A stretch of 64,000 nucleotides of DNA from an uncultured Acidobacteriia bacterium (lineage in GTDB: Bacteria > Acidobacteriota > Terriglobia > Bryobacterales > Bryobacteraceae), in NCBI GenBank assembly GCA_903900705.1, contig CAIUOG010000019.1, forward strand, positions 1 through 64,000. The letters run 5' to 3'. Shown here piece after piece: positions 55,258 to 61,269 of this stretch; the stretch's first letter is position 1, and the number at the start of each line of letters is the position of its first letter. Below the pieces are notes generated by a model that searched no databases, was not told the origin of the DNA, and saw nothing but the letters and a program-made list of their open reading frames with translations. Both the position numbers and the translations under genes were made by a program.

Positions 55258-55691
55258 ACCGGACTGAAAACCTGTGGTTTTGGTATGGAGTGGACCCCGT
55301 TATTTGAGATAAGCCGTTAGCCCTTTAAAAATCATTGAAAGGGGCAGGCCGAATGAAGACGGGCAGGTCACTTCAAGCCTCCTGCGATTATGCCTTCAAA
55401 CACTTCGCCCTGGCGCTCCTGATCTGCGCTCACCGGGATTCCTCGTGGTCCCGCGGCAACCTCGTAACCACCTTCGCCCGATCTCTTCGTCCGGAATACG
55501 CGCCACGTGGTTCCTCCCGGAATCCGTCAACTCAGACTAAGCGCACTTTCCACCCTACTTCTTCGGATTCTTCTGCTTGCCCATATTCTCAAGCGGCGGA
55601 TCGGCAATGATCACAAGATCACGCCTTTCCGCAAAGACCACAACACGATTTGGCGGCGTGAAGATGCTGCGATCACGGTGAAGGTCTGGTT

Positions 55692-55756
55692 GGCCGCTCC
55701 GGGCCCCCGCGAGAAGACCGCTGGATATCAGGGTAAGGGGGGCGCTGTTCAGGCGG
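55692..55756 (+). repeat. Direct repeat copy A (about 60 bp)
   Basis: CCGCTCCGGGCC, then GCGAGAAGAC, CTGGATATCAGGG and a G run are shared in order with 58595-58660. By eye about 85 percent identical. The two copies bracket the first Rhs-immunity cassette in the same orientation. Confidence 0.65.
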
Positions 55757-55763
55757 CCGTGTC

Positions 55764-56189: not shown

Positions 56190-56522
56190 TCAATCCGTAA
56201 TTACTGCCTGCTCGGCGACCACGCTCTCCGCCTGTTTTCCCGTATCCGATGCGTGCAGCATCACGATCAATCGGTCCTGTTCGTCAGCATTAAGATCTTT
56301 TCTCAGATGGACGTGGAAACCGTCTTTGTACTCCCCCAATGCCATTTTGACGAACAGTTTCGCTAAACTGAGTAACGCTGGTCGATTTGCATACAGAATG
56401 GGTACACCGTTCTCAACTGTCGTATCGAGATCCTCGTCGGCTTCGGGACTGTAATCGAACGTGATGTGATTTGCGCGTTCTTCTTCGAATTCAAAATTGA
56501 AGCTCTTCATATAGGGGCTCAC
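56190..56522 (-). CDS. Immunity-type protein for Rhs cassette 1
   Basis: 110 residues. The start GTG 56522 overlaps the Rhs stop in a GTGA junction; ATG 56510 (MKSFNFEFEE) is an alternative. Acidic, cytosolic, with ALLSLAKLFVKMALGEYKDG and FHVHLRKDLNADE, which recalls small immunity families of polymorphic toxin systems (Imm32-like, low certainty). Position immediately after a toxin-type C-terminus, coupled translation and small acidic character are the main evidence. It should bind and block the cognate C-terminal toxin domain. Confidence 0.65.
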   Translation of the reverse strand: MSPYMKSFNFEFEEERANHITFDYSPEADEDLDTTVENGVPILYANRPALLSLAKLFVKMALGEYKDGFHVHLRKDLNADEQDRLIVMLHASDTGKQAESVVAEQAVITD

Positions 56523-58567
56523 TGGTCAATGTGCTCGTTTGACACCACCCGCGGGCGATTCTTCGGACCCGGCTTTACAACCTCGACGTTCGCATGACGA
56601 GCAGGCTGTCCACCACTTCCCGGTATTGGATGTGTTTCAACGCGAACATTGAGCTTTGTACCTGGTTCATTCGGGTGAGAGATGGTGACATTCCCTTCCT
56701 GGTTCGGCGCTTTGGGATTCGCGGTTACGTTGAATCCACCCTTCTCGATCGAATCGGCGATCTGTTCTGGTTTGGACTTACCCCCGGAAGAAGTCGGAGC
56801 ATTATCTTGCATCGACGACAAAGCAGCATTGCCAAGGTTTTTTGCACCGAATACAGCGGCGCTGCTTCCCTGAACGATCGCTCCCGCCGAAACGACCTGG
56901 GCAGGGACGCCGATCAGCGCGCCGACACCGGTCAGGTCGAGGAGTGTACCGCCAACCTCGCCACCTATCCCCGCGAGAGTCTCCACTGTCCCTTGCACTG
57001 TGGCGACGGCATCGCCAATCGCTTGACCCGTCCGGAAGTCACTATTCCCACCAGTTGCCCGTCCAGCCCCGAAGAGGTTGTCGCTGCCAAACGCGTTGAA
57101 TGCCCCGGCTAATGCATCTCGCCAGTCCTGGCCGTCGGGATCTGTATAACGTAACGGGTTATTGCGCGTGTAACCGTACTTGTTCCAGCTCTGCGGATCG
57201 GTCAAATCATGAGGGAACATCTTCGGGTCAGGGCTGGTGAACCGTCCCTGAGCGCTCGACAGATATCTTGCCCCAAAGTAATCGAGGCCCGTTTCCGAAT
57301 CCCGTTCCTTGCCGGTGAATTTCTGCGCCACCGCACCAGTTCCACCGGCGCTGCCAAACATAAGAGCCGACGTCCGCGCGCCGGTCCCCGAATACAATTC
57401 CTCCCCGAACGGCAGATAATCGTGCCGTTCCACTGTCGCTCCCGTCACTCCGTCCGTGATCGCCCGCGTGCTTCCCAGATGATCCACCGTCAGATAGCAG
57501 GTCCCGCTCTGCGATCCCCCTGTTGTGCCTCCATACGCTGCCGCCAACTGCCCCATCGCATCGTAAACAAACACCGTACCCTGCTTCGCCACCCGCCGGC
57601 CATCGCCGTCGTACACATACGCCGCCGAAGCCCCCGTTCCAAGGCTGCTCGCCACCATTCGCCCTTCAGCGTCCCACTGAAACCCGTACGCTCCCAGCTG
57701 TACCTGATTGCCCGCCCCGTCATATCCGGCCCCGTTCAGCCGCAGCCGGTTATTCCCATCGAAGTTCGACGCCGCCGTCGCCGTAAAGGCGCTCAGCGCG
57801 ATCCCCGACGTTTGGGTCGCGTCCACCCATCGGTTTCCAAACTGGTCGTATCCGAACGTCTCCTGCCATACACCCGGTTCCCTGCCGTCCGCCAACCGGT
57901 TCAGCTTGTCATACGTGTAGTTCTGATCCACCCCCATCGGCCATACCGTGCTTGTAAACACATTGCCGTTATTCGTGCCGCACGGCACCTGTTTCCCGGC
58001 GCAATAGTAAAGGTCCAGCCCGAACACCGACCGCGCATTTCCCGCGCCCCCCGCGCTGATCGCCGTGGGCTGCAGGCGGTTGTTGTAACTCCACGTCTCC
58101 GTCAGCTTGTCGCCTCGCAACAGCGTCTGTAGGCCGCCGTGTGGCGCATAGCTCACCGGCGCCGTGTCGCTGCCGGCGTACCGGGTGGGTGTGGCCCCGG
58201 CAGCAACCGTCCCGCTCACGCTCCTCACGCGCCCCGCCGCGTCATAGCAACTGGTCACGCCGCGTCCGGAAGGGTACAGTTCGGTTTCCAGCCCCCCGGC
58301 CAGATTGTACGTGTAGGAAAACGGGTACAACGTACCGTTCGTGTTCTGGCTGCTCTGCGTAACCCGGCCCATCGCGTCGTAAGCGGTGTACTGTGTGGCG
58401 GTTGTTCCAGACGTCACTGCACTCAGCCGCCCTTTCCAGACAGTGTCCCAGACCCATGTTACCGGATTTGCCGCCACCCCATCCTGCGGACTCCCCCCTA
58501 CATAGCTGTAGCTCTTCCGCGTCGGTCTGACCTGAATCCCGCATCTCGCGGCGGTCCTCGCCGCCAA
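56519..58567 (-). CDS. Rhs-family toxin tip 1, N-terminally truncated
   Basis: 682 residues from a TTG at 58567 with no ribosome site; full Rhs proteins are two to three times longer, so this is a 5'-truncated gene or displaced orphan tip. Residues 20-400 carry YD-type repeats (YTYDKLNRLADG, DGAGNQVQLGAYGFQWDAEG). The core end is typical: TVDHLGSTRAITD, KERDSETGLDYFGARYLSSA, RFTSPDP and NPLRYTDPDG (476-479). The variable toxin region 480-682 has a hydrophobic stretch, then GFNVTANPKAPNQEGNVTI and RVETHPIPG...RHANVEVV with clustered Arg, His and Glu that could form a nuclease site. Toxin class not identified. Confidence 0.8.
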   Translation of the reverse strand: MAARTAARCGIQVRPTRKSYSYVGGSPQDGVAANPVTWVWDTVWKGRLSAVTSGTTATQYTAYDAMGRVTQSSQNTNGTLYPFSYTYNLAGGLETELYPSGRGVTSCYDAAGRVRSVSGTVAAGATPTRYAGSDTAPVSYAPHGGLQTLLRGDKLTETWSYNNRLQPTAISAGGAGNARSVFGLDLYYCAGKQVPCGTNNGNVFTSTVWPMGVDQNYTYDKLNRLADGREPGVWQETFGYDQFGNRWVDATQTSGIALSAFTATAASNFDGNNRLRLNGAGYDGAGNQVQLGAYGFQWDAEGRMVASSLGTGASAAYVYDGDGRRVAKQGTVFVYDAMGQLAAAYGGTTGGSQSGTCYLTVDHLGSTRAITDGVTGATVERHDYLPFGEELYSGTGARTSALMFGSAGGTGAVAQKFTGKERDSETGLDYFGARYLSSAQGRFTSPDPKMFPHDLTDPQSWNKYGYTRNNPLRYTDPDGQDWRDALAGAFNAFGSDNLFGAGRATGGNSDFRTGQAIGDAVATVQGTVETLAGIGGEVGGTLLDLTGVGALIGVPAQVVSAGAIVQGSSAAVFGAKNLGNAALSSMQDNAPTSSGGKSKPEQIADSIEKGGFNVTANPKAPNQEGNVTISHPNEPGTKLNVRVETHPIPGSGGQPARHANVEVVKPGPKNRPRVVSNEHIDQ

Positions 58568-58594
58568 GGGTCTGCTTCGCCGCTCCGCGCCCTT

Positions 58595-58660
58595 GACCGC
58601 TCCGGGCCGACGCGAGAAGACACTGGATATCAGGGAAAGGGGGCGACTGATCAGGCGTCC
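58595..58660 (+). repeat. Direct repeat copy B (about 60 bp)
   Basis: Second copy of the repeat at 55692-55756. It lies in the 99 bases between the 3' end of the second immunity-type gene and the truncated 5' end of Rhs 1, at the junction where both genes look broken. Confidence 0.65.
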
Positions 58661-58666
58661 GGCCGA

Positions 58667-59263
58667 TCAGGAGTGCAACTTGCGATGCTCAGGCTTAAGC
58701 AACGCAACCGCAGGAGCAGTGTTCTGATCGTAGTCGGAAATAGTTGCAATAGAAGCGTATTTTTCTGGGACATGATGAAGATCCATCTCGTCTCCAACCC
58801 TCAGCTTTCCCTTGAGCTGCACAGCATCTCCAGCATCTCCAGCAGTCATGTCAGGATTCCGCACAGAAGGAAATGCAGGCTCCGCGCACAGACGGTTGAA
58901 GATGTTGTGTAACTCTTCGCCGTCTGGCACATTGATCCTTATCCGTTGCGAATCCTTGACAAAATATAGCTCAAGATCTCCTTTCGTTGGCGTATCCTCG
59001 ACAACCGTCACACCATCAAGCACGCAAAGAAACTCGAAAACCGCGAGTTCTGCAGCTTCTTTTAACGCAAGTTCCAGCATCCGTTGGTCTGTATCGGAAA
59101 TACGACCGTACCATTCCGAAAGACGCACGTCCTTTTCCCGCGGTTTTCGCCCCGCGGGCCGCTTAAGCATTGCAACAGCGCCATGAACGGCTGCGTCGCT
59201 AGTCTGTATCTTGACGGCGCGCACAAAATCTTCACTGGTCATTTGAATGATCTCCGTGGTCAC
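58667..59263 (-). CDS. Immunity-type protein fused to an Rhs toxin-domain fragment
   Basis: 198 residues from GTG 59263, overlapping the Rhs 2 stop (GTGA). Residues about 1-140 are immunity-like (EFLCVLDGVTVVEDTPTKGD, ELYFVKDSQRIRINVPDGEE). Residues 161-194 (58783 to 58682) run from DLHHVPEKY to ALLKPEHR and align without gaps to residues 582-615 of Rhs 2 (DVHHVPQQQ to ALPKGEHR): about 15 of 34 identical by eye. The fragment stops four residues later, where the intact toxin continues about 54 more. So this gene carries the start of a second, truncated toxin domain of the same family at its 3' end. Whether immunity survives is unknown. Confidence 0.65.
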   Translation of the reverse strand: MTTEIIQMTSEDFVRAVKIQTSDAAVHGAVAMLKRPAGRKPREKDVRLSEWYGRISDTDQRMLELALKEAAELAVFEFLCVLDGVTVVEDTPTKGDLELYFVKDSQRIRINVPDGEELHNIFNRLCAEPAFPSVRNPDMTAGDAGDAVQLKGKLRVGDEMDLHHVPEKYASIATISDYDQNTAPAVALLKPEHRKLHS

Positions 59264-61269
59264 TGCGGCTGTTTATTCATTTCCGGATACTTCTTCTTGG
59301 CGAGATCGATAACTTCCTTCACCTTGGAATTTGGAGCATTTGTGTTGTTACGCAGATCTCGTGCATCTTTGGCCAACTGATCCCTTGGACTGCGCGCGGC
59401 ATCGCCCTTCTCTGTCGGGATCGCCCTGTGCTCGCCCTTGGGCAAAGCTATTGCCGAGCCGGTTTTGCCGTCATAGCCATCAACTATCTGGCCGGCAGGC
59501 TGCTGCTGAGGCACGTGATGGACATCCAGATTGCCGCCGGTCGCCGAGTTGCCCTTCAAATCGTTCGCGGACCCAACGTCGTAAGGTTGCGTGGCTTGGC
59601 CCTTACTGAACATCACACTGGCACCCGGGCCGGGATAGAACTCCGAGGTGCAAGATACTCCGCAGGCTGAAGGCGCGCTGTTTAGAGCGTCCAGCCCACG
59701 GCCAATGGCGTCGGTCGTCTTATTAACCAACGCAACTGTGGCGGCGATAGCTCGCTGTCCTGCCGGAGACGCAAGATACGCCGCCGTCGCTCCAACTCCG
59801 GCCACCACAGCCGTGGCCTCAGCGATGCATGCATCCCAAAAACAGTGTCCGTCCGCATCAGCCCTCGAGAGAGGATTGTTCCGAACGTAGCTATAGAGAT
59901 TCAGCGTTTGCGGATCAGTCAGATCAGCATAAGGAACGGCCTGCGGTGTTGGCGACCAGTCCGGACTCGTGAACCTTCCCTGAGCACTCGACAAATATCT
60001 TGCCCCGAAGTAATCGAGACCCGTTTCCGCATCCCGTTCTTTGCCGGTAAATTTCCGGCGCAGGTCATCGCCCGCGTCCGCCGTCAGATACCCCAGCCCC
60101 GCGGTCCGCCCCCCGGTGCCCGCGAACAGTTCCTCTCCAAACGGCCGGTAATCATGGCGTTCCACCGGCGTCGCGGTCACTCCATCCGTCATCAGCCGCG
60201 TACTGCCCAGATGATCCACCGTCAGATAGCAGGTCGTACACGCCGCCACTGTTGCCGCGCCACCGTACTCCGCCACAACCTCACCCTGCGCGTCATACAG
60301 GTACGCCGTCGTCGTCGACCCCTGCTTCATCACCCGACGCCCGTCGCCATCATAGCTGTACGTGGTCGTCTGGGGCGCCTCGCCCGTCTGCATTGTGAAT
60401 GCGCTTGACGCCATGCGCCCTTCCGCATCCAGCACATTTGACCAGGCGCCCATCTGCCGCAGATTCCCCGCCGCATCGTACTTCGAATTCCCCGTCTGCA
60501 ACCAGTTCCGGGAATCAAAATTACTCGAAGCCGTCGCCGCGAAGGGCGAGATGCTCACCCCCGCGCTGTTCCCCCCGTCAACCCAGCGATTCCCAAACGA
60601 ATCATAGCCAAACGTCTCCTTCCAGGCCGATCCCTCCATCGCGCTCTTCAGCCTGTTAAACGGGTCGTACAGGTATTGCTGCGTCGCTCCCAGTCCACCC
60701 AGCGTGGTCGATTGCACATTCCCATTGTTCGTGGAACAGGAACCCGCACTGCCCGCACAGTAATAAACATCAAAACCAAACGCAGAACGCGCCGCCGTCG
60801 CCGTCCCCACCGAAATCGCCGAAGGCTGCAGCCGGGAGTTGTAATTCCAGCCCTCCACCAGCCCATCGCCCCGCATCATCGATGAGATCGCTCCATGCGG
60901 CACATAAGAAACCGCCGAAGCGTAGTTGGTCGTCTGCAACTGGCTCGTGACCCCGCTCAGCGACTTCGCCCGCCCCGCCGCATCGTAACAAGTCCGGACG
61001 GTCCTGCCCGAAGGATAAACCTCCGTCTCCACGTTCCCCGCAAGATTATAGGTATAGGAAAGCGCGGGATAGGCAATGCCATTGATCGTCTGGCTGCTCC
61101 GCAACACCCGCCCCGGCAAGCCACTGACGAACGTCCGATACGTCGTTTGCCCGCCCGTCGCGATGGTCTCCGTCTGCAAGTTCCCATTATTACCCGCGCC
61201 GCCCCTGATCCTGAAGCGTGTCCCCAACCCGATCCAGGAGCCTCCGGCAACTTCCACGCCGAAAGACAC
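59260..61269 (-). CDS. Rhs-family toxin tip 2, N-terminally truncated
   Basis: 669 residues from GTG 61269; the first 30 residues do not look Rhs-like, so the true gene is broken upstream. YD repeats run to about 400, then TVDHLGSTRLMTDG, KERDAETGLDYFGARYLSSA, RFTSPDWSP and NPLSRADADG (the usual DPDG changed to DADG, 471-474). The variable region 475-669 has a hydrophobic segment and a C-terminal domain with LDVHHVPQQQPAGQIVDGYD, ALPKGEHRAIP and DARDLRNNTNAPNSKVKEV; the His-His and Glu-His pairs suggest a metal-dependent nuclease, as in HNH-like polymorphic toxins (inference). Coupled to the immunity-type gene. Confidence 0.8.
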   Translation of the reverse strand: MSFGVEVAGGSWIGLGTRFRIRGGAGNNGNLQTETIATGGQTTYRTFVSGLPGRVLRSSQTINGIAYPALSYTYNLAGNVETEVYPSGRTVRTCYDAAGRAKSLSGVTSQLQTTNYASAVSYVPHGAISSMMRGDGLVEGWNYNSRLQPSAISVGTATAARSAFGFDVYYCAGSAGSCSTNNGNVQSTTLGGLGATQQYLYDPFNRLKSAMEGSAWKETFGYDSFGNRWVDGGNSAGVSISPFAATASSNFDSRNWLQTGNSKYDAAGNLRQMGAWSNVLDAEGRMASSAFTMQTGEAPQTTTYSYDGDGRRVMKQGSTTTAYLYDAQGEVVAEYGGAATVAACTTCYLTVDHLGSTRLMTDGVTATPVERHDYRPFGEELFAGTGGRTAGLGYLTADAGDDLRRKFTGKERDAETGLDYFGARYLSSAQGRFTSPDWSPTPQAVPYADLTDPQTLNLYSYVRNNPLSRADADGHCFWDACIAEATAVVAGVGATAAYLASPAGQRAIAATVALVNKTTDAIGRGLDALNSAPSACGVSCTSEFYPGPGASVMFSKGQATQPYDVGSANDLKGNSATGGNLDVHHVPQQQPAGQIVDGYDGKTGSAIALPKGEHRAIPTEKGDAARSPRDQLAKDARDLRNNTNAPNSKVKEVIDLAKKKYPEMNKQPQ

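Follow-up and report, generated by a model that had tools for sequence, protein, structure and literature searches.

An immunity gene ending in a truncated toxin fragment at an acidobacterial Rhs locus: a probable scar of C-terminal displacement

Why should an immunity gene end in a piece of a toxin? The question is raised by a locus in the genome of an uncultured Acidobacteriia bacterium (Bryobacteraceae; GenBank assembly GCA_903900705.1), of which the first 64,000 nucleotides of contig CAIUOG010000019.1, here called the window, were analysed. The gene concerned, Imm2, lies directly downstream of an Rhs gene, Rhs 2, both on the minus strand. Its longest open reading frame covers 58667-59263 (198 codons), with GTG 59263 as an upstream in-frame start. 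In an alignment of immunity proteins Met8 (ATG 59242) lines up with Met1 of every homologue, so that ATG 59242 is the likelier start, giving a gene of 191 codons at 58667-59242. A first-pass annotation had described a protein of two parts, immunity-like and then toxin-like, and had suggested that the toxin-like tail was either a recombination scar or something that made the protein a decoy or partner of the toxin.

The upstream gene, Rhs 2 (59260-61269, minus strand), encodes 669 amino acids within a stop-to-stop frame of 678 codons, and its core was recognised by TIGR03696 (59 bits, cut-off 32.5), RHS_repeat and YD repeats. When it was assessed as a full-length, delivery-competent Rhs protein the N-terminal part was found to be missing; the Rhs open reading frames around this toxin in several relatives exceed 1,300 codons. 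With its N-terminal part absent, Rhs 2 together with Imm2 is an Rhs toxin-immunity module rather than a complete Rhs effector. This Rhs core occurs in only two genes of the genome, Rhs 1 and Rhs 2, neither with an N-terminal delivery part, and both modules may be silent or dependent on something unrecognised. A repeated insertion-sequence end was considered as the cause of the 5' truncation of Rhs 2 and was rejected as unsupported, since the DNA just upstream of the gene is not repeated in the genome.

The C-terminal toxin domain of Rhs 2 (59263-59580, minus strand, 106 amino acids) is of full length and 48-56% identical to the toxins of other loci. Its predicted structure had a mean pLDDT of 81, with one good model among five, and the best structural match was the C-terminus of the DNase TseN (PDB 9J9W; PMC12574953), with a Z score of 6.9, below the level called reliable, over 101 residues at an rmsd of 2.9 and 14% identity. 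The next match had a Z score of only 2.3, and there was no sequence-profile match between the toxin and TseN. It is a reasonable guess that the toxin is a nuclease with an HH motif in its active site. The likeness did not extend to the immunity partner, as TsiN, the immunity protein of TseN, has a seven-stranded sheet (PMC12574953) whereas the model of the Imm2 immunity domain is mostly helical. Neither the toxin nor the immunity model had a significant match in Foldseek, and with VIA-align the immunity domain had weak matches only.

The distribution of the pair was investigated by aligning the Rhs 2 toxin with a toxin from an Aeromonas plasmid and scanning 84,980 species genomes with the result. 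This revealed 19 toxin loci in unrelated bacteria, among them Burkholderiales, Thauera, Pectobacterium, Photorhabdus, Yersinia, Pseudomonas, Sphingobacterium, Tumebacillus and Verrucomicrobia. At 17 of the 19 an immunity homologue follows the toxin directly; these proteins have 114-124 residues, end in LHDLYNA or something similar, carry no tail and stop where the immunity domain of Imm2 stops, at about residue 119 in Met8 numbering. Separate immunity genes in relatives, which the first-pass annotation had suggested looking for, do exist. The remaining two loci, in Photorhabdus thracensis and Brenneria (L025:4001-4312 and L028:4001-4213), hold damaged toxins beside transposase-like genes and have no immunity gene. 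The Aeromonas plasmids, which form one family, also carry toxin and immunity protein as two separate genes. A first scan of the species-genome contigs with the whole Imm2 protein gave no match, and the homologues were reached through the toxin alignment. Pfam, NCBIfam, PADLOC and PHROGs gave no useful match for the toxin or Imm2, only one weak PHROG match of unknown function, and no toxin homologue was found in viral and phage collections. Judged by these searches, the predicted toxin and its immunity gene are a widespread pair without a family model in the libraries searched.

Immunity homologues also occur without a toxin, in the same genus (beside MutS2), elsewhere in the phylum and on plasmids of Vibrio and Sphingomonas. 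Those of full length stop no more than a few residues from the motif described above, except for two distant ones, which continue for about 15 residues beyond it. Candidate orphan immunity genes in the phylum and on these plasmids are L006:1492-1863 (the one beside MutS2), L063, L066-L069, L002:3007-3366 and L003:3010-3366.

Against this background Imm2 divides clearly into two. Residues 1-119 (58886-59242, minus strand) are homologous over their whole length to standalone immunity proteins and scored 114 bits against an immunity profile built without the window sequence. They are followed by a tail of 72 codons (58670-58885, minus strand), joined in frame to the immunity domain and open throughout, with no stop and no frameshift. 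No immunity homologue, toxin-linked or toxin-free, has this extension; the window protein alone carries one. The structure of the protein alone, predicted by AlphaFold2 from 17 alignment rows, was confident for residues 1-119 (pLDDT mostly above 90) and below 50 for residues 136-188, although the tail had no homologous rows and its predicted disorder is weak evidence. The functional product of Imm2 is best explained as residues 1 to about 119, and as the whole conserved length has been kept this domain probably still protects.

What the tail is made of was settled by comparison with the toxin. The first-pass annotation had reported a gap-free match of residues 161-194 with the DVHHVP...KGEHR stretch of the Rhs 2 toxin, with 15 of 34 residues identical, and had placed the end of the fragment four residues past EHR, where the intact toxin runs 54 more; both held when recounted from the sequences. 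The likeness begins further towards the N-terminus, at about residue 148 by the toxin profile, and profile and genome searches delimited a truncated toxin-family fragment (QLKG...DLHHVP...EHRKL) at 58676-58822 on the minus strand. When 17 toxins from outside the window were made into a profile, the tail scored 38.4 bits against it, well above chance (the best of 20,000 shuffles reached 10.3); its match spans about positions 5-54 of the 104 in the profile, which correspond to the toxin's N-terminal half. When the Imm2 protein was used as a single-sequence query against the whole genome (179 contigs) the sole other match was Rhs 2 (E = 1e-6). The toxin alignment found only Rhs 2 and the tail in the same genome, the tail with E = 3e-9, and the same two matches were the total from 257 genomes of the order. 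The motifs HHV, YD, TAPA and EHR have been kept. These results bear on the idea that the tail is a genuine second immunity domain whose likeness to a toxin is convergent or accidental. Poly-immunity proteins, whose extra parts are further immunity domains, do exist (PMC3482391) and share with Imm2 an additional part on an immunity domain in one polypeptide. The extra part in the window is, unlike theirs, a truncated toxin fragment; the profile score contradicts a second immunity domain, no homologue carries one, and neither Pfam nor NCBIfam has a match. Full-length homologues with an immunity domain conserved at the C-terminus, which would have told against the first-pass description, were searched for and not found. 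A second immunity domain is thus extremely improbable, and the division into an immunity part and a tail belonging to the toxin family stands.

If the tail is toxin, it might have been copied from the toxin next door. The Rhs 2 toxin is its best match in the genome, and in a tree of the toxins the two are weakly sister, with a support of 71. The tail has, however, the longest branch in that tree (1.38). Over 50 codons compared with the Rhs 2 toxin, identity at the first, second and third codon positions is 50, 70 and 28%, so that third positions are saturated; nucleotide identity is 49%, and the same codon is used at only six of 19 identical residues. Such a pattern of codon-position identity points to an old, formerly constrained toxin lineage and not to a fresh duplicate. 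In amino-acid identity the tail is about as close to most other toxins (34-42%, with one at 24%) as it is to the Rhs 2 toxin (38%). The idea that part of the neighbouring toxin was freshly duplicated was accordingly given very little credence, the codon saturation ruling out a recent one. Judged from these comparisons the tail is a piece of a different, diverged member of the toxin family.

It is also clear that this piece has decayed. Twelve positions in the stretch covered by the tail are invariant across the intact toxins, and the tail has lost five of them (S, Q, P, Q, G), including the whole Q..P..Q..G motif; in a leave-one-out comparison intact toxins lose between none and three of the 12. 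The missing C-terminal half of the toxin was not found downstream in any frame, elsewhere in the window or anywhere in the genome. With half a domain and part of the conserved core gone, the tail is very unlikely to be active as a toxin.

A dead toxin might nevertheless serve some other purpose, and the alternative raised by the first-pass annotation was that of a decoy or partner. Such a tail would imitate the toxin, either folding back onto the immunity domain or capping it, through autoinhibition, dimerisation or decoy action, and would tune when the toxin is bound. The in-frame fusion, the 72 open codons and the retained HHV, YD, TAPA and EHR motifs would fit with this. A decoy would, however, require selection on the tail, and an extension found in one genome only, with conserved residues lost, leaves that unsupported; half a domain is insufficient for the whole toxin fold, and the tail is predicted to be disordered, though from a prediction with no alignment for that part. 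A functional tail is therefore very unlikely. The more specific proposal, that the tail has been kept as a cis-acting half-toxin mimic modulating the binding of the real toxin, is a little less likely again; it would give immunity proteins a possible way to evolve, by taking up fragments of toxins that had been displaced. Of the two suggestions in the first-pass annotation it is the scar that is well supported.

Further evidence comes from the DNA beyond the tail. A degenerate, MITE-like remnant, here called the R element (copy 1, 58543-58661, minus strand), was identified by comparing repeats with related genomes. Its core begins 22 bp after the stop codon of the tail, and the extended repeat 5 bp after it. 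Part of it (58593-58661) recurs at 55690-55759 on the minus strand as copy 2, so that two copies lie within 3 kb and flank the Rhs 1 module; there are no others in the genome besides these two degenerate ones. In related genomes the complete element is 131-139 bp long with terminal inverted repeats of 13-14 bp (GCCCCCTTTCCCTG / CAGGGAAAGGGGGC), and is MITE-like. Copies in the genus include L043:3607-3745, L045:3186-3316 and L042:3918-4051, and two further genomes of the genus have R copies near Rhs genes or fragments. The element may mark or mediate rearrangement of Rhs modules. Rfam revealed no RNA family in the region. Rhs 1 itself (56519-58567, minus strand), delimited from its reading frame and a core search, is an Rhs core that is truncated at its 5' end and has an unrelated C-terminus. 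It is followed by Imm1 (56190-56522, minus strand), which has a weak match to Imm32 (24.5 bits, cut-off 27); copy 2 of the R element lies beyond both. Imm2 with its tail and Rhs 1 share one frame and are divided by a single TGA, the stop codon of the tail at 58667-58669; but for this codon the frame would run uninterrupted from 59242 to the stop of Rhs 1 at 56519-56521. An arrangement resembling a displaced tip occurs in another genome of the genus, where an Rhs gene and the small gene after it are closely followed by a fragment of Rhs core that ends in DPDG and has a new C-terminus (L042:2246-2680).

A repeat so close to an unusual gene also invites the suspicion that a draft assembly joined two loci at the repeat, the genome being in 179 contigs and the R repeat occurring twice within 3 kb. 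Over 200 bp, however, separate the repeat from the junction of immunity domain and tail, which is a non-repeated sequence, and the gene lies inside a long contig. An assembly error is therefore highly improbable.

The absence of a tail from every homologue, the eroded core motif, the missing second half and the repeat adjoining a truncated Rhs module together point to the tail being, most probably, a recombination scar of Rhs C-terminal displacement that was fused in frame by chance. The sequence of events may be reconstructed as follows. Rhs 2 carries an intact toxin, probably a nuclease, of the widespread uncurated family, and the next gene would be its cognate immunity gene. During exchange of C-terminal toxin-immunity cassettes a cassette of the same family would have displaced an older one, and the join would have put the 3' end of the immunity gene in frame with the first half of the displaced toxin. 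The second half would have been lost later, apparently through a rearrangement ending at the R repeat before the truncated Rhs 1. The tail, dead as a toxin, would probably persist as a tolerated, disordered extension, and the immunity domain, if the protein is produced, would still neutralise the toxin. A caveat is that a pure scar would need neither 72 open codons nor an in-frame join. Neither the missing half nor the original junctions occur in any relative, so that the path of recombination is a reconstruction from an end state. Moreover, displacement of Rhs tips usually leaves units of core plus tip with immunity genes of their own, whereas here there is half a toxin and no core.

C-terminal displacement is among the closest known systems. 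In enterobacterial Rhs loci C-terminal tips are swapped by recombination, and degenerating toxins of low GC content are left downstream together with core fragments (Jackson et al. 2009, PMC2935791); an orphan Rhs toxin has been cited alongside such displacement (PMC3967940). The window shares with these loci a toxin-tip fragment downstream of an Rhs-immunity pair, and a GC content, 51% in the immunity domain and the tail, below the 61-62% of the Rhs cores, as described in PMC2935791. The tail is likewise degenerate, with half the domain and five of the 12 invariant residues gone. It differs in that no core fragment nearly identical to the upstream gene precedes it, the immunity domain coming directly before, and it is for this reason better called a remnant of displacement than a typical dissociated tip. 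It further differs from the cases of PMC2935791 and PMC3967940 in that the fragment is half a toxin of the active toxin's own family, in frame on an immunity gene. In Serratia, exchange at Rhs loci is accompanied by orphan RhsI immunity genes (PMC10539506); immunity genes of the present family similarly persist without toxins, in the same phylum and on plasmids, although the cognate toxin of Imm2 is still upstream.

The locus documents an uncurated polymorphic toxin-immunity pair whose conservation reaches from Tumebacillus and Sphingobacterium to Photorhabdus, and cassette shuffling appears here to have fused half of a dead toxin to an immunity gene. Should the tail prove important, it would illustrate a way for immunity proteins to gain a regulatory part derived from a toxin. 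As a scar, it would be a clear trace of Rhs displacement in bacteria other than enterobacteria.
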